From contig CP136066.1 of NCBI GenBank assembly GCA_032622095.1, positions 190,454,816 to 190,518,815 on the forward strand: a stretch of DNA of 64,000 bases, in the 5' to 3' direction. The notes beneath the pieces were generated by a model. It had not been told where the DNA came from and did no database searches. It worked only from the letters and a program-made list of their open reading frames with translations. This stretch comes from Siphonodentalium dalli. Taxonomy: Eukaryota; Mollusca; Scaphopoda; Gadilida; Siphonodentaliidae. The translations under genes and the position numbers were made by a program. Numbering within the stretch: position 1 is the first letter of the stretch; each line of letters starts with the position of its first letter. Shown one piece after another: positions 349-56,887 of the stretch.

Positions 349-531
349 GTATCGGTAACGGTGAACCATGCGTCTACATCCAGGCCACGTGTGACGAATG
401 TCGTGACGTCGGTGACTATCAATGCAAAGACCACGCCGCGTGCAGAACTCTAGTCCACGTAGGCTGCGTAACTTACGTCTGCAAATGCGTCGAGGAATAC
501 TACGTCGATAGAGATGGGATCTGTGTGAAAG
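349..531 (+). CDS. gene A, cysteine-rich EGF-like exon
   Basis: This internal exon encodes about 61 residues with nine cysteines in EGF-like spacing (PCVY, ATCDECR, YQCKDHAACR, VGCVTYVCKC, GICVKG). Proteins with such modules are usually secreted or cell-surface and the fold is held by disulfides. The acceptor is AG at 347-348 and the donor is GAAAG|GTAAAT, with GT at 532-533. Both junctions are phase 1, so the exon can be inserted or lost without a frameshift. Nine cysteines is more than the six of a standard EGF domain; an EB-type module or one and a half EGF units are alternatives. The last 40 or so bases of the exon and its donor are the founder of the long minisatellite that follows directly. 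Placement in the same gene as the downstream EGF and CTLD exons is inferred from strand, phase and order. Confidence 0.7.
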
Positions 532-2254
532 GTAAATATGGGAATACTACGTCAATAGAGATGACATCGGTGTGAAAGGTACTATAGGAATACTACGTCA
601 ATAGAGATGACATCTGTGTGAAAGGTAACTATTAGAATACTACGTTAATAGAGATGGCGTCTGTGTGAAAGGTAACTATGGGAATACTACGTCAATAGAG
701 ATGACATCGGTGTGAAAGGTAACTATAGGAATACTACGTCAATAGAGATGACATCTGTGTGAAAGGTAACTATTAGAATACTACGTTAATAGAGATGGCG
801 TCTGTGTGAAAGGTAACTATGGGAATACTACGTTAATACAGATGGCGTCTGTGTGAAAGGTAACTATAGGAATACTACGTTAATACAGATGGCGTCTGTG
901 TGAAAGGTAACTATAGGAATACTACGTCAATAGAGATGACATATGTGTGAAAGGTAACTATAGGAATACTACGTCAATAGAGATGACATCGGTGTGAAAG
1001 GTAACTATGGGAATACTACGTCAATAGAGATGACATCGGTGTGAAAGGTAACTATGGGAATACTACGTCAATAGAGATGACATATGTGTGGAAGGTAACT
1101 ATAGGAATACTACGTCAATAGAGATGACATCGGTGTGAAAGGTAACTATAGGAATACTACGTCAATAGAGATGACATCGGTGTGAAAGGTAACTATAGGA
1201 ATACTACGTCAATAGAGATGACATATCTGTGAAAGGTAACTATGAGAATACTACGTTAATACAGATGGCGTCTCTGTGAAAGGTAACTATGAGAATACTA
1301 CGTTAATACAGATGGCACCTGTGTGAAACGTAACTATGGGAATACTACGTTAATACAGATGGCGTCTGTGTGAAAGGTAACTATGAGAATACTACGTCAA
1401 TAGAGATGACATCTCTGTGAAAGGTAACTATTAGAATACTACGTTAATAGAGATGGCGTCTGTGTGAAAGGTAACTATGGGAATACTACGTTAATACAGA
1501 TGGCACCTGTGTGAAAGGTAACTGTGGGAATACTACGTTAATACAGATGGCGTCTCTGTGAACGGTAACTATGAGAATACTACGTTAATAGAGATGGAAT
1601 ATGTGTGAAAGGTAACTATTAGAATACTACGTTAATAGAGATGGCGTCTGTGTGAAAGGTAACTATGGGAATACTACGTTAATACAGATGGCACATGTAA
1701 GAAAGGTAACTATGGGAATACTACGTTAACACAGATGGCACCTGTGTGAAAGGTAACTATAGGAATACTACGTTAATACAGATGGCGTCTCTGTGAAAGG
1801 TAACTATGAGAATACTACGTTAATACAGATGGCACCTGTGTGAAACGTAACTATGGGAATACTACGTTAATACGGATGGCGTGTCTGTGAAAGGTAACTA
1901 TGAGAATACTACGTTAATACAGATGGCGTCTGTGTGAAAGGTAACTATGGGAATACTACGTCAATAGATATGGCGTCTGTGTGAAAGGTAACTATGGGAA
2001 TACTACGTTAATACAGATGGCACATGCGTGAAAGGTAACTATGGGAATACTACGTTAACACAGATGGCACCTGTGTGAAAGGTAACTATGGGAATACTAC
2101 GTTAATACAGATGGCGTCTCTGTGAAAGGTAACTATGAGAATACTACGTTAATACAGATGGCACCTGTGTGAAACGTAACTATGGGAATAATACGTTAAT
2201 ACAGATGGCGTCTGTGTGAAAGGTAACTATGGGAATACTACGTTCCGAACGATT
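492..2254 (+). repeat. 47-bp minisatellite derived from an exon end and splice donor
   Basis: About 36 tandem copies of a 47-bp unit follow the EGF-like exon. The unit starts GGAATACTACGT and ends GTGTGAAAGGTAACTAT. It matches the exon 3' end (492-531) plus the first intron bases, so every copy carries a donor-like AAAG|GTAACT. Copies alternate between variants (CAATAGAGATGACAT, TAATACAGATGGCGT and TAATACAGATGGCAC), which suggests growth in multi-unit blocks. The array stops abruptly inside a unit at about 2254. Because 47 is not a multiple of three, in-frame translation soon meets stops, so the array is intronic and not a coding repeat. Confidence 0.95.
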
Positions 2255-5141: not shown

Positions 5142-5256
5142 ACATATGATACTAAGGTTATAACACGTACATATGATACTAAGGTTATAACACGTACATA
5201 TGATACTAAGGTTATAACACGTACATATGATACTAAGGTTATAACACGTAAATATG
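5142..5256 (+). repeat. 27-bp tandem repeat, four copies
   Basis: Four nearly identical head-to-tail copies of a 27-bp unit beginning ACATATGATACTAAGG and ending AACACGT. The unit is a multiple of three and stays open as a repeated nine-residue phrase, but no splice sites or domain support coding. It lies in the intron before the second EGF exon. Confidence 0.95.
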
Positions 5257-5427
5257 TTTAGACAACTTTGTTTATAAGGCCATGACTGCAGTAACTTTTT
5301 CCGGGTACGAAGAGGGCATTATGTGCCTACTGGTAGCTATCGACCTAGATTTTGTAACTATAAAATTTCATTCACAAAATAATGTGACATGCATGTCCGT
5401 ATACTTTGTTTCAAAATTCAAAAACAT

Positions 5428-5526
5428 CAGTGCCAACCAATCATAGTCCACACAATACATCAGTGCCAACCAATCATATTCCACACAATACATCAGTGCC
5501 AACCAATCATATTACACACAATACAT
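5428..5526 (+). repeat. 33-bp tandem repeat, three copies
   Basis: Three direct copies of a 33-bp unit beginning CAGTGCCAACCAATCAT, with one or two differences between copies. The array ends about 33 bases before the acceptor of the EGF exon at 5560. It therefore occupies the region where the branch point and polypyrimidine tract would be expected. Confidence 0.95.
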
Positions 5527-5559: not shown

Positions 5560-5697
5560 AAATTCCACTTGGCGGAACCTGCAGCCACAACGGAGAGAAT
5601 GAGTGTGTCACAGAAAACGCAGAATGTGTCGCTAAGGACGGAAAATCAACCTGTGGATGTTCCGATGGATATGAGAAAGACGGAAATCATGCTTGTG
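5560..5697 (+). CDS. gene A, EGF-like domain exon
   Basis: A 138-bp exon encoding one complete EGF module with exactly six cysteines (GGTCSHNG, NECVTENAEC, STCGCSDGYEKDG, HACG). The CGCSDGYEKDG stretch is characteristic of EGF domains. The acceptor is TTTCAACAG at 5551-5559 and the donor is GCTTGTG|GTAAGTG, with GT at 5698. Both junctions are phase 1, the usual symmetric arrangement for exchangeable extracellular EGF exons. The longer open frame around it, on both sides, is intron. I assign it to the same gene as the lectin exons downstream because strand and phase agree and no other gene intervenes. Confidence 0.88.
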
Positions 5698-29598: not shown

Positions 29599-31353
29599 GA
29601 GAGTGGCTAAAATGCAAGCTTGGTGCCAAGCTTGGCAGTTTTTAAGGCAGGTGACTAAAAGACAAGCTTGGCGTTTTCAAATTTTTAAAAAGCCTTTTAA
29701 ACGCTGTTTTCGGGTGAATTATGCGGGAATAGCACCAGTTAATTACTTATATGGCCCATTTTCGTAAATTAATCGACAATAGTGGCAGTAATGTCCCCGA
29801 TTGGTTGGTTAATAGGGGGCGTGGTCACAAAATCAAAACATCGTCTTTTTACGCAGATTTCTTGTCGGTTTTTGGTCGATTTCTCTTTTTAAACATCAGT
29901 TGGACTAAGTTTTTTATTCGAAACATGTTGAATGGTTATCATTTATCACTCTCATAGTCGAGCTTGGCGGTTTTGAACATTATATGCGAAGAATTTTTGA
30001 CTTTTAGATGACCGACCACCGAACCGCCAAGCTCGAATAAAAAATCAAAATATTAAGCTGAATTTTCGCCGATTTCTCGTTTCTAAAACACGTTCCATCT
30101 AGTTTTTATGTAAAAACGTGTAAAATGATTATCATTCTTCACAAATATAATCGGGCTTGGCGGTTTTGAACATTATATACAAAGAATTTTTGACTTTTAG
30201 ATGACCGACCACCGAACCGCCAAGCTCGAATAAAAAATAAAAATATTAAGCTGAATTTTCGCCGATTTCTCGTTTCTAAAACACGTTCCATCAAGTTTTT
30301 ATGTAAAAACGTGTAAAATTATTATCATTCTTCACAAATATAATCGGGCTTGGCGGTTTTGAACATTATATACAAAGAAGTTTTGACATTTTGATGACCG
30401 ACCACCGAACCGCCAAGCTCGAATTAAAAATAAAAATATAAAGCTGAATTTCGGCCGATTTCTCGTTTCTAAAACACGTTCCAGCTAGTTTTCATGTAAA
30501 TACATGTAAAATGATTATCATTCTTCACAAATATAATCGAGCTTGGCGGTTTTTAATATTTTATATTAAGAATTTTGGACATTTGATGCGGTCCTACTAA
30601 ACAACGAACACAAACGAACACAAACGAACATAAACGAACACAGGTCTAAAAAGCGGAATAGAAGGGTGAAATTTGGTTTGTGGGTGCGTGTGGGTCCATT
30701 ATATGTGTATGTGGTGTTATTTCCAACTTTGATGACTTATTTTTCGAGTTATAAGCATTATTTGAATGCAAAGCTACTAAACAACGAACACAAACGAACA
30801 TGAGATTAGCCGTATTGCAAAGGTGTTAATAAAGGTGTTAATTAACTACCGCCTTCTCTATGGCTTATACTCTGTCTCTTTGTCACTGAGTTGTTTTGAC
30901 TTAGTTAGTTTGTCTTATTATTACTTCGTTTAACTTCCCTGGCATCACACTGCTCTTTGAGTAGAGCTTTAGGTACTAGAATCAAAGTTTGTTTTATATA
31001 CAATCGAATATTTATATATTATTTTACACTGACTCAGCCCCGGCGGAACGATGGGCAGAGTTTGTTCTCCTTGAAGTCAGTGCATGGATGAAAATGGCTC
31101 CTGCAAAATGTTGCATTATTTAAATCATTAAAATCAAGTAATGCACTTATTTGATATGAATCCAAGAAGTCTATATGTTATTTTATCACATGATTAGCAC
31201 TATTTTCCTATGTAATATTCGAGCGTAATAGACACGTGTAATATCGTTGCGTGCAATGACGTCACGCTGCTCTTTGGGACAAAGTTCTCTGTCTGTTAAT
31301 TATTGTTGTTTTCGATAAAAATTAAGCGATTATATAACCATGTGATAAAAAGT

Positions 31354-32198: not shown

Positions 32199-33606
32199 TG
32201 CTTTCATAATTGTTATTTGTCCAATATTTCGGAATTGTTGAATTTTGTGTTCTAGCATTGAAAACTTTCGTCTTTAGTCTTTCCATAAATGTAAGGTATC
32301 GTCTGTTGTCACATATATTTGTCAATTATGTCTGTCTGTATTTCGTCATAAATGATTTTGTTTTCTATTGTTACCAAGCCGCCCTCGCTATTGAATACTT
32401 TTCCATCTTATTGACAGTTTGATCACTGTCTGTTTTACTTAAATTACGATTGAGATTTTGCTTAAGATGCCTGGTACATAGCGTATGCGTGTATCAGGAA
32501 AGCAAGCAGATATAGCATTTACCAGAGTGATCTCCGAGACTGAGTGATCTCGTATACTGAGAATTTTCGACTTTTAGGTGACCGACCACCGAACCGCCAA
32601 GCTCGAATTAAAAATCTAAATATTAAGCTGAATTTCCGTCGATTTCTCGTTTCTAAAACAAGTTCCAGCTAGTTTTTATGTATAATCATGTAAAATGATT
32701 ATCATTCGTCACAAATATACTCGAGCTTGGCGGTTTTGAATCATTTATATTAAGAATTTTGGACATTTGATGACCGACCACCGAACCGCCAAGCTCGAAT
32801 TTTAAATCAAAATATGAAGCTGAATTTCCTGAGATTTCTCGTTTCTAAAACATGTCCCAGCTATTTTTCATGTAAAAATATGTAAAATGATTATCGTTCT
32901 TCACATATATACTCGAGCTTGGCGGTTTTTAACATTGTGTACTTAGAATTTTCGACTTTTATATGACCGCTCACCGAACCGCCAAGCCAATGCAAAATGA
33001 TACCCAGACCAAACCGAGGCAAAATGATACCCACCAAATATTGTCAACGTGTACCCATTAATGATCGTCCATGCAACTAATCAAACTTGTTCAATTATGT
33101 TATATTCTTGTTTCGATGTAGCAATGTGATTTAAATGGCACGTATATATAAGATAAGTTAGTCGTGAGTGGAACGGTCACAATGATAATATACATGAATT
33201 CCAGAGGGCAAACTGTAATATAATTTAATTCTCCATCCACATTAAATTATTATTATTATTATTTGTTTTTTGGGGGGGATTTGACCCAGGAGGATTTGAA
33301 AGAGCCTGAGACGTCATTTTTTCTTTCTTTTTAGTGTAAACATATTTTTATTTCCAACATAACATAATACACAGATGATACAAAATTAATATGCAAAATA
33401 GAAGAGAATCAGAATCAGAATTCAATTAATCTCAAATCGTCGTACATGTTGACATAGCAGAGACATATATATGTCACTCACATCAGTGCTATAATAAATA
33501 ATATTGAGTAAAATGTCCGAAATGTGATCTCGTAAAGTATAACAAAATAAACCGACTTGGCACATATTTTTGGTTTAGTGCCATCACAAATGCGGTCAAG
33601 ACGCAT

Positions 33607-34125: not shown

Positions 34126-36398
34126 TGGTTTAAAACGATAGTCCCCTTCTTTGTAACGGTATATATTCCTGCAAGTCTTGATTGACAGTCAAACTCCATA
34201 CAATTGCGTCCCTTTTGCCACGTGGCTTGTTTTCGGCATCGTTGAAATGGTTCGAACCCGAATTGGCATCTTATCGGGGAAGTGGCATGTCGCCAAAGAG
34301 GAAAAGACTTCATATAAGCCATCGGGCTTGTTGTCTGGTCCTCATTTCCATACATTATCTCTTCTATTTTGCATATTAATTTTGTATCACCTGTACACGT
34401 GCATATTATGTTATGTTGGAAATAAAAATATGTTTACACTAAAAAGAAAGAAAAAATGACGTCTCAGGTCCTTTCAAATCCTCCTGGGTAAAATCCCCCC
34501 CCCCAAAACAAATAATAATAATAATAATTTAATGTGAATGGAGAATTAAATTATATTACAGTTTGCCCTCTGGAATTAATGTATATTAGCATTGTGACCG
34601 TTCCACACACGACTAACTTATCTTATATATACGTGCCATTTAAATCACAATGCTACATCGAAACAAGAATATAACATAATTGAACAAGTTTGATTAGTTG
34701 CATGGACGATCATTAATGGGTACACGTTGACAATATTTGGTGGGTATCATTTTGCCTCGGTTTGGTCTGGGTATCATTTTGCATTGGCTTGGCGGTTCGG
34801 TGAGCGGTCATATAAAAGTAGAAAATTCTAAGTACTCAATGTTAAAAACCGCCAAGCTCGAGTATATATGTGAAGAACGATAATCATTTTACATATTTTT
34901 ACATGAAAAATAGCTGGGACATGTTTTAGAAACGATAAATCTCAGGAAATTCAGCTTCATATTTTGATTTAAAATTCGAGCTTGGCGGTTCGGTGGTCGG
35001 TCATCAAATGTCCAAAATTCTTAATATAAATGATTCAAAACCGCCAAGCTCGAGTATATTTGTGACGAATGATAATCATTTTACATGATTATACATAAAA
35101 ACTAGCTGGAACTTGTTTTAGAAACGAGAAATCGACGGAAATTCAGCTTAATATTTAGATTTTTAATTCGAGCTTGGCGGTTCGGTGGTCGGTCACCTAA
35201 AAGTCGAAAATTCTCAGTATACGATGTTCAAAACCGCCAAGCTCGACTATGAGAGTGATAAATGATAATCATTAAACGTGTTTTCAGATGCAAACTATGT
35301 GTAAATGGTGTTTAAGAAGAGAAATCGGCCAAAAATCGACAAGAAATCGGCGTAATAAAGCGAGGGTTTCATTCGGTTAACACACCCCCTATTAACCAGC
35401 CATCGGTCATTAAAATGTCCAAAATTCTTAATATAAAATATTAAAAACCGCCAAGCTCGATTATATTTGTGAAGAATGATAATCATTTTACATGTTTTTA
35501 CATGAAAACTAGCTGGAACGTGTTTTAGAAACGAGAAATCGGCCGAAATTCAGCTTTATATTTTGATTTAAAATTCGAGCTTGGCGGTTCGGTGGTCGGT
35601 CATCAAAATGTTAAAAATTCTTTGTATATAATGTTCAAAACCGCCAAGCCCGATTATATTTGTGAAGAATGATAATAATTTTACACGTTTTTACATAAAA
35701 ACTAGATGGAACGTGTTTTAGAAACGAGAAATCGGCGAAAATTCAGCTTAATATTTTTATTTTTTATTCGAGCTTGGCGGTTCGGTGGTCGGTCATCTAA
35801 AAGTCAAAAATTCTTTGTATATAATGTTCAAAACCGCCAAGCCCGATTATATTTGTGAAGAATGATAATCATTTTACACGTTTTTACATAAAAACTAGAT
35901 GGAACGTGTTTTAGAAACGAGAAATCGGCGAAAATTCAGCTTAATATTTTGATTTTTTATTCGAGGTTGGCGGTTCGGTGGTCGGTCATCTAAAAGTCAA
36001 AAATTCTTTGTATATAATGTTCAAAACCGCCAAGCTCGACTATGAGAGTGATAAATGATAACCATTTAACATGTTTCGAATAAAAAACTTAGTCCAACTG
36101 ATGTTTAAAAAGAGAAATCGACCAAAAACCGACAAGAAATCTGCGTAAAAAGACGATGTTTTGATTTTGTGACCACGCCCCCTATTAACCAACCAATCGG
36201 GGACATTACTGCCACTATTGTCGATTAATTTACGAAAATGGGCCATATAAGTAATTAAATGGTGCTATTCCCGCATAATTCACCCGAAAACAGCGTTTAA
36301 AAGGCTTTTTAAAAATTTGAAAACGCCAAGCTTGTCTTTTAGTCACCTGCCTTAAAAACTGCCAAGCTTGGCGCCAAGCTTGCATTTTAGCCACTCTC

Positions 36399-51602: not shown

Positions 51603-51934
51603 TGTTACGCCAGCTTTTGAAGTAACTGACCACTTTTGAAGTAGGTCTCCACTTATGAAGTAAAAAACGCCAGCTTTTGAAGTAACTCACCACTTTTGTA
51701 ATAAAATCGCCAGCTTTTGTAGTAAAGTGAGGTCGCCGCTTTTGAAGTAAAAAACGCCAGCTTTTGTAGTAAAAAAACTAGGTCTCCACTTTTGTAATAA
51801 CAAAATTACAGCTTTTGAAGTAAACTGACTCAATACATTTTGACGAGCGCTGAACGATTTTCATGACAAAGTCAACCCGATAATCCATAGTGGCTATCGC
51901 GATACGAGTATGACTTGTGACTGAATATATTTAG

Positions 51935-52700
51935 TGAGTCCGGTTCCGTGACAAAAGAATCCACACCGGTAATCGACCATATGCATGTGACGTGGTTGGA
52001 ATATCCTTCTGTCATACCAACACAAGAGAAATCACACAGTCAATCGCCCATACGCATGTGACGTGTACCAAAAGGCACTTTGTGAGTCCGGTTCCGTGAC
52101 AAAAGAATCCACACCGGTAATCGACCATATGCATGTGGCGTGGTTCGAATATCCTTCAGTCACACCAACACAAGAGAAATAACACAGTCAATCGCCCATA
52201 CGCATGTGACGTGTACCAAAAGGCACTTTGTGAGTCCGGTTCCGTGACAAAAGAATCCACACCGGTAATCGACCATATGCATGTGACGTGGTTCGAATAT
52301 CCTTCAGTCATACCAACACAAGAGAAATCACACAGTCAATTGTCCATACGCGTGTGACGTGTACCAAAGGCACTTAGTGGGTCCGGTTCCGTGACAAAAG
52401 AATCCTCACCGGTAATCGACCATATGCATGTGACGTGGTTCGAATAGCCTTCAGTCATAACAGCAGAAGATAATTTATAGAGTCAATCGCCCATATAAGT
52501 GTGACGTGTACCGAACGGCATTTAGTGAGTCTGTTTCCCTGCCTAATCATATGAACACACATAGGTGATCAATCATACGAGTATATAAGATTGTTCCCAG
52601 TCAGTCTGACAACCCACACTATTGAATGCCCTTACAAGTGCGACCGTTGTCAGAAGAAGTTCGATGTTACATTGAGTCAGGCAAGACTGAAGACGTTTTG
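51935..52700 (+). pseudogene. decayed C2H2 zinc-finger array in the left arm
   Basis: Units of about 148 bp, starting at GAGTCCGG near 51935, 52084, 52232 and 52379, translate to broken finger phrases: HTGNRPYACDV, and NRPYACDVYQKALCESGSVT. At 52629-52680 a better preserved piece reads PYKCDRCQKKF. HTG(E/D)(K/R)PY.C..C is the linker and first half of C2H2 fingers, which bind DNA. Successive pieces lie in different frames, with stops and lost cysteines or histidines. It looks like a duplicated, non-functional remnant of a zinc-finger gene now serving as transposon end sequence. Confidence 0.7.
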
Positions 52701-52770
52701 TCAGTCCAGTAACATGATGACATATATAGTTTCTCGAAATTAGGTGATGTATTAGTTCCAATGGAAAATA

Positions 52771-53925
52771 GTTGGTATATTTATTATTGGCCTCACTTTT
52801 AATTGCATATTCGTACCCTCGAAATTAGGTGACCCGACGTGTTAGGGACAGCAGAAAATGGTTGGTTTATTAGATTCGTCTCCTGAAGGCGACATTAACA
52901 ACAATTTTCAATCATTAAAATTATGTCACATAACCGAAGTATTATAACTACGTCAAACATGGCCAGCTATAAAACACGGGAGCCAGTAATGTGTTGTGTG
53001 GAAACCGTTGGGTTCACATACACTCTGATGATTGAGTATATAAAATAACGGATTCGATGGCATTATGTCGCTATACAGGGAAAGTTAAACTTTCAAATCT
53101 CAATGTTCTTTCCTTTCCAAATTTATTCAACATAATATACGAATACAATTAATTATTTGATTGTAAATTGTCAGGCACAGCAATACAAAATGAAACGCAT
53201 AACAAAATTAAGAATGAATGGAACGATGTTGTTGATGTAGTTAAATAATAATTAGTCAAATTTATCCTCAACCTCCCCTTAGACGCTATAGTTCTTGAAT
53301 AGTTATGTATACTATTGTATAGCTTTATCCCTTATCGCCTTTCATCCACATCAACAATTCTGCTATCTGAATCTGTTTTGTTTATTATGGTCAATAAATG
53401 AAATCAATATTCTATCATGAAGACAATATATGATGGTATACATATTTACTATTGCTATGTTGCACCTATCAATTGGGGTCAGACTAAGTGGTGTACTATA
53501 GTCAGGGAAGGTTGAGGTGTCTCACGGACTGATAACTTAACATAAAAACAATGATGAACTAATTTGAGATATCACAGAACACAACAAAACACACATATTA
53601 GTAATATACCAGATCTCTAAATCCACCAGCCATGCAAATTCGTCCACTGTTTCACGTTTACTGAAGCCAATATATAATAAATCAACTTCACAGTTCGCCC
53701 AGAAACGTTCCTCAAGCCATGTCCTGATTCTATATAAATTATGTCTTACACAGTTACATATATTAATCCAAAGTATCTGCCTCTTACAATTTCTAAATTA
53801 TTTGTGCTAATGTCTCATTCGAGAAGTTGGCCAATATTGGTTTTCAAAAAACGTGGTTCTAATTTAATGTATTTTAAAAATACTCGATATGTTCTTAATA
53901 TGTTACCATGTTTTCCTTTTCTTGT
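52771..53925. other. core of foldback 2, unassigned part
   Basis: AT-rich sequence between the left arm and the end of the OTU/F-box pseudogene. No domain recognised. Confidence 0.45.
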
Positions 53926-55408
53926 TTAGTTTAGTTCAACAATTCGGAACCACCCTGGTCCTCTGCTTTGCACGTGAGCAAGTTTGACGTATGCACACCA
54001 CCATCTCCTCCTTGAAGATATGTATGATTTGAGTGTCAATACCAGTCCACTTGACTTGCCCGCTTTCCTCATGATACACACAACAGAGATGGTGTTCTTC
54101 TCATCGTTTAGTTTCAAATCCGACACCAAACTCGGACCCACATGCAAAGTCCATTTGAACATTTCCATAAGATGACTGTGATTTCTCAAGAAACGAGCAA
54201 CGATGTCATTCTACATACTGCACACCAGGCTCAATCTGCTTGCATGGCTTACATCACTTAGTAGAATATACTCGAGTACTAGTTCATGTATCTCAGGAGG
54301 CAATATGAGAACATACGTGTACATCTCATCTCCATTACGCGCCACTCCACGTCCATGTTCCACATGTACTATATCTCTTTCGCTTACTCTGTCAGGTTCA
54401 ACTTGTTTTGCTGATTCTGATATTGCGTATTCATTACGCGCCACCACACTTGCATTCTCCCCGTGTACTATTGCCGCTTTGCTTGCGATTGCTAATTCAG
54501 TACAAATTTCATCCTTATTACTCACCACCCTACTGCCCTTCTTCCCAGGTACTATTGCTATTTTCCTTACCCTGCCAGGTCTAATGATCGCTGATTCATT
54601 GTCACTATGCGCCCATCCACGTACCTTCTCCGTGTGTACTATTACTCTTTCTCTTACTTTGGGTATAGATTCCGCTGATTCTGTCAACATAGCATCTTCA
54701 TTGCGTTCCACTCCACTACCCTTCTCGTCGTGTACTTTTGCTGTTTCTCTTGATTTGTCAGGTCCAATGCTTGATGAGTCAGTAAAAATGTCATCTTCAT
54801 TACACGCCACTCTACTCCCCTTCTTCCCACGTACAATTGCTATTTCCCTTACTCTGTCTAACTCAGGTCTAATTTTTTGTGATTCTATTAACATCCATTC
54901 TTTACTATGCGCCTCTCCACTTCCCGTCTCCCCATGCACTAATACTCTTTTGCTTGCTCTGATTCAGTCAACATCTTATCTTCATCATGCACCACTCAAA
55001 TTCCCGTCTCACCATGTGTTATTGCCGTTTCGTTTGCTCTGTTAAGTTCAGCTCTTCCTGTTGTGCTCGATATCTCATCATCCTTGATACAAGCTGCTAA
55101 ATCGCCATGCTCTCACTGATCATCTGAGTTGACAGCATCGCTGACCAAACCAGAGAGACTCACATAATGCTCGCCATGTCCTTCAGGCAGATGACCGAGA
55201 ATTATGGACATAATTCCTCTATCAAAAACTCCACTGGGAGATAAGATCGTCGTGTGTTCAAGTCCGCGACAGACAGTACAACACAATTCACATTGAACAT
55301 TTCAACCACTCTTTGTAAAGTGATATGGTCTCCATATGTCCCTTGACGCGCCAATCGTTCTATGTACCGATTTACATTCTCTTCAGGTATGAACGATTGA
55401 ATAGGTGT
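53926..55408 (-). pseudogene. decayed OTU protease and F-box fusion gene
   Basis: Reading leftward from 55408, the first part reads SFIPEENVNRYIERLARQGT, then YGDHITLQRVVEMFNVNCVV. After a one-base shift it continues GIMSIILGHLPEGHGEHYVSL to 55113. This matches the C-terminal two thirds of an OTU cysteine protease (deubiquitinase), including the catalytic histidine region EHYVSL. The catalytic D.NC part is missing. Next come about seven repeats of roughly 37 residues (REIAIVRGKKGSRVACNED type), open from 54939 to 54211 but frameshifted before that. Then comes an F-box, LPPEIHELVLEYILLSD..SRLSLVC, an in-frame stop at 54211-54213, and an in-frame tail to 53926. F-boxes recruit substrates to SCF ubiquitin ligases. 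The lesions make it non-functional. Confidence 0.75.
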
Positions 55409-55882
55409 TCCAACAATAATTTAGTTTGTAATTCCAGGAACCATTATCTCTCGTTATTAAAGTGTCCAAAGGAGATTGTATTACAGTTGTAAATTGAATG
55501 AACATCTTTGACTTATTATTCTGTAGCACGTGCATGATAATATTATTCTAACTGGGACAATGACTCGTGAAATTATGCAGAATCGGTGTTTTGTTGTATG
55601 ACATTCTTAATCACCTGACATCTGGACTTACGTCCTTTGTTTCATAGTTGGCCAATCAGAATGAAACACGTAAGAAAATGGACTTATTTATCATTATTGA
55701 TAATCGACTATAAAATTACAAAAAGGAGACTGAACCTTTTGGCACCAGGAACATTGCGAATTGGAAGTTTGACATAGGACTGTTCTTCCAAAGAAGAGGA
55801 CAAATAGACCAACCTTTTTCCGTTGTAACTGATACATTTGTCACATCCCCCAATTTTGAGGAAATATACATGTTGCCATGTT

Positions 55883-56500
55883 ACTGGACTGACAGAACGT
55901 CTTCAGACACACATCTTGTCACCAGCGTGGATTCTCTTATATATTGTAAGACTCGCGGTCACGGCGAACTTCTTCTAACAAACATCGCACCTATAAGGTC
56001 GGTCACCAGTGTGGATCGTCAGGTTGACGGACATACTGGGAACAACATTGCATTCTCGTATGATTGACCACTTATGTGTGTTCTCATATGCTTAGGCAAG
56101 GAACCGGACTAACTAAATGCCTTTATGGTACACGTCACACGTGTATGGGCGATTGACTGTGATTTCTCTGGTGTTGGTATGATTGGAGGCTATTCAAACC
56201 ACATCACACTCGTATGGTCGATCACCTGTGTGGAATATTTTGTCACGGAACCGGACTCACTATGTGCCTTTTGGTACACGTCACACGCGTATGGGCGATT
56301 GGCTGTATGATTTCTCTTGTGTTGGTATGACTGAAGGATATTCGAACCACGTCACACGCTTATGGTCGATTACCGGTGTGGATTCTTTTGTCACGGAACC
56401 GGACTCACCATGTGCCTTTTGGTACACGTCACACGCGTATGGGCGATTGACTGTGTGATTTATCTTGTGTTGGTATGACTGAAAGCTATTCAAACCACGT
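55883..56500 (-). pseudogene. decayed C2H2 zinc-finger array in the right arm
   Basis: Mirror of the left-arm array. The clearest finger, at about 55915-56016, reads IHTGDRPYRCDVC, a stop, then KKFAVTASLTIYKRIHAGDK. It has the C..C pair, the hydrophobic F and L positions, the second histidine and the HAGDK linker, while the first histidine is tyrosine. Further out, RPYACDVYQKAHGESGSVTK is read at 56281-56493. One stop and several shifts break the array. Confidence 0.75.
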
Positions 56501-56887
56501 CACACTCGTATGGTCGATTAACGGTGTGGATTCTTTTGTCACGGAACTGGACTCACTAAATATATTCAGTCACAAGTCACACTCGTATGGGCGATATCCA
56601 CTATGGATTATCGGGTTGACTTTGTCATGAAAATCGTTCAGCGCCCGTTAAAATGTATTGAGTCAGTTTACTTCAAAAGCTGTAATTTTGTTATTACAAA
56701 AGTGGAGACCTAGTTTTTTTACTACAAAAGCTGGCGTTTTTTACTTCAAAAGCGGAGACCTCACTTTACTACAAAAGCTGGCGATTTTATTACAAAAGTG
56801 GTGAGTTACTTCAAAAGCTGGCGTTTTTTACTTCAAAAGTGGAGACCTACTTCAAAAGTGGTAATTACTTCAAAAGCTGGCGTAACA

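Follow-up and report, generated by a model that had tools for sequence, protein, structure and literature searches.

A splice-donor minisatellite derived from an exon end in an EGF-like gene of Siphonodentalium dalli, and donor-spanning arrays at other EGF-type exons

The array at the donor of exon A

We analysed a stretch of 64,000 nt from the genome of the scaphopod Siphonodentalium dalli (GCA_032622095.1; C6:190454816-190518815), here called the window, and searched the genome (2.23 Gb, 9 contigs) for related sequences; repeat counts from these genome searches are lower bounds. The window contains exons A and B of an EGF-like gene. Exon A lies within an open frame at 222-575 and is followed by exon B; both are cysteine-rich modules with phase 1-1 boundaries, and their Pfam matches to the EB module and to EGF families are sub-threshold. 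A further exon of the gene, exon C, lies upstream. The features described below are the following (in splice motifs, the slash marks the exon-intron boundary).

349-531, + strand: exon A, EGF-like, phase 1-1, 183 nt, source of the repeat at its donor side (open frame; 16 paralogous exons with the same end)
494-540, + strand: copy 0 of the unit, with the authentic donor AAAG/GTAAAT (parsing)
541-2244, + strand: 36 further copies (copy 1 of 46 bp, the others of 47 bp) and a partial unit up to 2244, intronic (TRF, parsing)
573-575, + strand: in-frame TGA in copy 1, ahead of the second donor, whose GT is at 579 (reading frame)
2245-2714, + strand: right flank, homologous to the intron of an array-less C9 paralogue (alignment, 92%)
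5142-5256, + strand: minisatellite with a 27-bp unit and 4.3 copies, in the same intron (TRF)
5424-5526, + strand: minisatellite with a 33-bp unit and 3.1 copies; it ends 33 nt short of exon B and does not span its acceptor (TRF)
5560-5697, + strand: exon B, the following EGF-like exon, phase 1-1 (sequence; paralogues)

At the donor of exon A, TRF detected an array at 494-2244 with a period of 47, 37.3 copies, 90% matches and a score of 2592. We parsed the array into 37 units with 26 distinct sequences: copy 0, which is the exon end itself, and 36 further copies, of which copy 1 has lost one base and is 46 bp long. The repeat finder and the variant map thus agree with the first-pass annotation that an exon end with its donor has been amplified about 36 times. 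Two details of that description had to be changed. In the unit, 38 nt are exonic (494-531) and 9 nt intronic (532-540), where 40 exonic bases with the donor had been described, and the exon's own donor is AAAG/GTAAAT (GT at 532-533), whereas the GTAACT that had been assigned to it is that of the copies. Among the 36 copies, 30 read AAAG/GTAACT, three AAAC/GTAACT, and one each GAAG/GTAACT, AACG/GTAACT and AAAG/GTACTA. The GT is kept in place in all 36, and AAG/GTAACT is exact in 31. The junction between units (TATG/GGAATAC, the slash here separating two units) can be explained by one G common to intron and exon, as far as the sequence goes. As to higher-order structure, we found only short blocks of three repeated units at lags of 3, 7 and 18, none of them strong.

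The array lies entirely downstream of the intact exon A and its donor and is located within the intron. When reading on from exon A, a TGA is reached at 573-575 in copy 1, before the second donor; thus, use of any later donor would bring in a premature stop, irrespective of phase. The earlier suggestion of length isoforms with a frameshift was therefore too mild. Judged from the reading frame, only the first donor would yield a normal mRNA, and it is presumably the one in use.

The window contains further repeats. The 27-bp repeat in the same intron has 4.3 copies in the window and 12.2 in a C9 paralogue (L026 2095-2423), so that its copy number has turned over since the duplication. A long inverted repeat at 51629-56862 has arms at 51629-51900/56591-56862 (98%) and 51902-52332/56158-56588 (91%), which are made of 148-bp and about 20-47-bp tandem repeats and surround about 3.8 kb; by its sequence, it looks like a mobile element of the fold-back type. 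A 193-bp tandem repeat occurs in three blocks (29954-30588, 32552-32987 and 34787-36127), the third in opposite orientation by its consensus.

Single-copy paralogues and the origin of the array

Exon A has 16 further matches in the genome, 14 on C9 at 184.8-187.3 Mb and two on C3, all with the same boundaries; one of the 17 A exons (C9:185027664) has TG in place of AG at its acceptor. Exons B and C have paralogue sets similar to that of exon A. Our family set comprises 17 A, 16 B and 15 C exons (48 in total) and leaves out three distant B-like matches at C9:116.7-116.9 Mb, a split exon (C9:186984595/186984641) and a weak, stop-bearing C-like match (C9:185123750). When comparing the window gene to its closest C9 paralogue over the three exons, we obtained a dN of 0.132 and a dS of 0.241. 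The ratio is lowest for exon B (dN/dS 0.046/0.287), followed by exon A (0.113/0.184), and it is near one for exon C (0.241/0.268). The exons do not appear obviously dead, with an open frame and a constrained exon B; exons A and C change fast, and the gene could thus be decaying.

None of the 16 paralogous A exons carries a donor array. The closest of them, C9:185276845, contains a single copy that differs from the exon end at 3 of 47 positions. Its intron starts with GTAACTATG, which is identical to the intronic part of the array units, and it reads GTAACTATGG in the intron as the array units do. After the exon end, this paralogue continues GTAACTATGGCAGC; thus, the intronic GTAACTATG of the units is the older state and the GTAAAT of the window exon the newer one. 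The flanks of the array are homologous to the closest paralogue on both sides. On the left, window positions -1042 to 541 align to the C9 paralogue L009 with 83% identity and, on the right, 2242-2714 align to L009 2217-2692 with 92%. At the position of the array, about 0.5 kb are found in L009, and a palindromic insertion bounded by TTAA makes up much of this stretch. Furthermore, when the genome was searched with the first two units, 36 matches lay in the window and one elsewhere, the single copy at a paralogous C9 exon; no other array of this 47-bp unit was found. The array is thus far beyond chance. We conclude that 38 nt of exon end and 9 nt of intron were tandemly duplicated in the line leading to this gene and then expanded to 36 additional copies, whereas a single copy remained in the closest paralogue. 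The direction from exon to array, as proposed in the first-pass annotation, is thereby confirmed. We also considered that the array marks a new intron inside a former exon, gained by duplication of an AGGT segment; this was rejected, as the intron that holds the array is also present in the single-copy paralogue C9:185276845.

The palindromic insertion, which starts with TTAACCCTTTACCCAAC and has an inner CATTCTCTTATATATGCGAGTCGAC palindrome, is common to the introns of several paralogues. We found it in L009 (about 1704-2120), L010 and L008 and upstream of the window; judging by its TTAA ends, it may be a MITE. L025 (3372-4599) and L007 (1-1074) have an intron array with a 31-35-bp unit (TTGTCTGACCGTGTGTCCATTGTGGTGTGGTAAGA) and dozens of copies between exons C and A; it contains the donor-like GTG/GTAAGA.

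Donor-spanning and acceptor-spanning arrays at other exons

We found donor-spanning arrays with other units at the two other exons of the family. Three C9 genes have a 40-bp unit (19 nt of exon and 21 nt of intron) at exon B, in 4.5 to 4.7 copies. At exon C of several genes, a 35-bp unit (about 7 nt of exon and 28 nt of intron) extends from the donor, with up to 34 recognisable units in one of them. A separate 69-bp unit (57 nt of exon and 12 nt of intron) is found at exon C of two genes, with 3.0 and 4.0 copies. Taken together, TRF detected donor-spanning arrays at 9 of the 48 family exons with full flanks and at 10 with 145-nt flanks, and acceptor-spanning arrays at none of the 48. The 69-bp array (L028 and L029; C9:187237645 and C9:185220048) is in frame, such that each later donor would add 23 residues per copy. 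It is open through two further donors in C9:187237645 and stopped in the second copy in C9:185220048.

For comparison, we analysed two sets of control exons, with donors and acceptors placed by a script that uses a donor matrix. The 80 EGF_CA exons outside the family come from 150 rows out of 2322 candidates. Half of them are the first 40 rows whose open frame is below 200 aa (including L125), and the other 40 were hand-picked among rows with a nearly complete domain match. From another 149 rows, 40 Sushi exons were picked in the same manner. Doubtful placements among the controls include L054 (whose donor looks like GC), L048, L065, L071, L077, L080, L085 and L104, and L075, L090, L098 and L123 have no AG at the expected position.

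With full flanks, a donor-spanning array was found at 7 of the 80 EGF_CA exons (L056, L081, L089, L096, L106, L108 and L110); the count is 6 with 145-nt flanks and 7 with 195-nt flanks, where L097 is in and L110 out. An acceptor-spanning array was found at one (L046, 49 bp, 2.1 copies). The array in L089 has a 47-bp unit in 34.8 copies, and that in L096 has at least 57.8 copies, as it reaches the end of the stretch analysed. The copy number at exon A, which had been called unusual, is thus unusual only in relative terms. L081 has two copies of 58 bp, and its paralogues L079 and L083 are single-copy; it shows the first step of array growth. All seven arrays lie in two clusters. The one at C3:277.6 Mb has arrays at 3 of the 23 exons analysed and the one at C7:0.6-0.8 and C2:13.9 Mb at 4 of 12, i.e. 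7 of 35 exons inside the clusters compared to 0 of 45 elsewhere. Among the 40 Sushi exons, there is no array at the donor or the acceptor. The EGF_CA exons thus rule out that such arrays are unique to this gene family. That they are general to all exons is unsupported by the Sushi exons; however, the difference between 7 of 80 and 0 of 40 is non-significant (p 0.09).

When comparing the two sides of the 128 EGF exons (48 of the family and 80 EGF_CA) with 145-nt flanks, we observed 16 donor-spanning arrays and one acceptor-spanning array. The family contributes 10/48 versus 0/48 and the EGF_CA exons 6/80 versus 1/80. Of the purely intronic arrays, which are distributed differently, 4 flank the donor and 6 the acceptor (Fisher p 0.004, with the caveat that related exons are not independent). 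Arrays appeared to be generally more frequent on the 5' side of introns, but this effect vanished once boundary-spanning and purely intronic arrays were separated. For the EGF_CA exons alone, the asymmetry is non-significant (p 0.10), and purely intronic arrays with 195-nt flanks number 8 on the donor side versus 7 on the acceptor side. Grouping arrays by shared unit, we counted 10 donor origins (47, 40, 35 and 69 bp in the family; L056, L081, L089, L096 with L110, L106 and L108) versus one acceptor origin (p 0.012), or 10 versus 2 if L076 and L099 are counted as a second acceptor origin (p 0.039). L099 and L076 have a 44-bp array (6.6 and 4.4 copies, respectively) that terminates 9 nt short of the exon match, and its last unit supplies the stretch just before the acceptor.

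Arrays of the same layout thus arose repeatedly at EGF-type donors in this genome and hardly ever at acceptors. The imbalance itself is suggestive and not settled, given the few origins. It suggests that minisatellites at exon-intron boundaries form recurrently and persist at donors but not at acceptors.

Explanations for the arrays and comparison with known boundary repeats

We consider it probable that the array is a nearly neutral minisatellite that was born from the exon and is tolerated as the original exon and donor stay intact upstream. A duplication at the donor leaves an intact exon and donor upstream, which are transcribed first; the copies thus fall into the intron and are removed with it. 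Splicing would use the first, exon-attached donor, which is the first to be made and equal to the copies. For the duplex with the U1 5' end, we estimated energies of -6.8 kcal/mol for the first donor and, for the copies, of -6.5 (31 of 36), -5.6, -5.2 and -1.6 (three); the first donor is as good as any copy and not clearly better. The extra copies would leave with the intron, and the array could grow nearly neutrally, probably by slippage or unequal exchange. Steps of such growth are seen elsewhere, from two copies in L081 and about 4.5 at exon B of three paralogues to the 34.8 and at least 57.8 copies of L089 and L096. At acceptors, extra copies would come to lie upstream of the true acceptor and would be likelier to be chosen, such that these duplications would mostly be lost. 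This is the weakest step. In the human CBS gene, the 844ins68 variant duplicates an intron/exon junction and is described as harmless, with the distal site favoured (in the part of PMC2630376 that we compared); thus, duplicating an acceptor need not always do harm.

Alternatively, the array could act on splicing. Some transcripts would use a later donor, run into the stop in copy 1 and be degraded by nonsense-mediated decay, such that copy number tunes expression. This agrees with the TGA that every later donor brings, and with the copies being nearly equal to the first donor for U1 in the same exonic context. Furthermore, among 17 donor arrays tested, a stop precedes the first additional donor in 9. 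However, that donor is reached without a stop in the other 8, and the stop is thus not general. The conservation of the copies also speaks against such a role. The donor 9-mer has a mean diversity of 0.029 in the 36 copies versus 0.122 elsewhere, but it is only the sixth most conserved of the 47 circular windows, and the best-kept stretch has no splicing role. We found no clear sign of selection on the donor in the copies of the 47-bp array or in the 158 units of the 35-bp exon C arrays, where GTAAGT is intact in 84. We regard this explanation as unlikely. A broader version, in which EGF clusters recurrently carry arrays specifically at donors, these arrays are retained for their effect on splicing, and decoy donors set the share of productive mRNA as a heritable tuning knob, appears doubtful to us.

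Another possibility is that mutation and not tolerance determines where the arrays occur. The donors or transcribed boundaries of these genes would break or slip more often, with selection playing a minor part. The restriction of all seven EGF_CA arrays to two clusters indicates that the locus matters, and minisatellites are abundant in these introns. Yet the purely intronic arrays are equally frequent on both sides and do not point to donors as hot spots, and the duplicated stretches differ (47, 40, 35, 69, 58 and 133 bp), sharing no motif other than the donor. We thus think it improbable that seeding by mutation is the main cause.

U1 suppresses premature polyadenylation and helps to commit exons. 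Donor copies on the sense strand might recruit U1 at the start of a long intron and serve either purpose. Such arrays are present independently at exons of three gene groups, and exact donors number in the dozens in some of them, with 33 copies of GATGGTAAGT in L089 and 56 of GGTAAG in L096. However, recent copying accounts for the exact donors of young arrays, the donor columns show no special conservation, and no array was found at the 45 EGF_CA exons outside the two clusters or at the 40 Sushi exons; we consider this role quite improbable. An assembly artefact in the copy number, which rests on one assembly, is very unlikely, as the array is only 1.75 kb long and spannable by long reads, 26 of its 37 units are distinct and its flanks are syntenic with the C9 paralogue. 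Capture of the exon end from a pre-existing satellite has next to no chance of being correct: nothing was found in its favour, and it is refuted by the 16 array-less, single-copy paralogous exons with the same exon end.

The arrays bear on the question of how the spliceosome chooses among identical donors in an identical exonic context. They constitute natural contests, with one true donor against 36 near copies in the window, and with L089 and L096 as additional cases; later donors would be unproductive in 9 of the 17 arrays. If the imbalance holds genome-wide, it would provide a population-genetic measure of how well splice sites tolerate duplication, at donors compared to acceptors.

Repeats at exon-intron boundaries are known from other genomes, and the single array is a further case of these. 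In the model of Rogers, introns are gained by tandem duplication of a segment containing AGGT (PMC4974935, compared in part). Here, the unit likewise holds AG/GT and is tandemly duplicated over a splice boundary; however, the copies extend an existing intron, whereas the potato case described there spans the intron-exon (acceptor) boundary. Human genes in segmental duplications carry boundary minisatellites with a mean unit of 30 bp and 4 copies, which alter introns and have transcript support (PMC2812944). As in exon A, these minisatellites lie at exon-intron boundaries of recently duplicated genes and are absent or different in a close paralogue; a donor-to-acceptor imbalance was not found in the passages of that paper that we compared. 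A literature search at the level of result entries found neither donor arrays in EGF genes nor an imbalance of minisatellites between donors and acceptors.

The 31-bp VNTR of human CBS is reportedly linked with reduced enzyme activity. Named c.1444_1467+7(16_21), it has 16 to 21 copies and is polymorphic in people, according to the parts of PMC2630376 that we compared. By its name, it comprises 24 coding and 7 intronic nt and thus spans the exon-intron boundary and repeats the donor, as the array of exon A does. The differences are that polymorphism has been shown in people, whereas the present array is known from one assembly, and that the unit here has 47 bp and 37 copies in an EGF-like gene, with donor arrays of unrelated units at other EGF exons. 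What the literature search did not find beyond these systems is the repeated occurrence of such arrays over the donors of EGF exons, in dozens of copies, with hardly any at acceptors.
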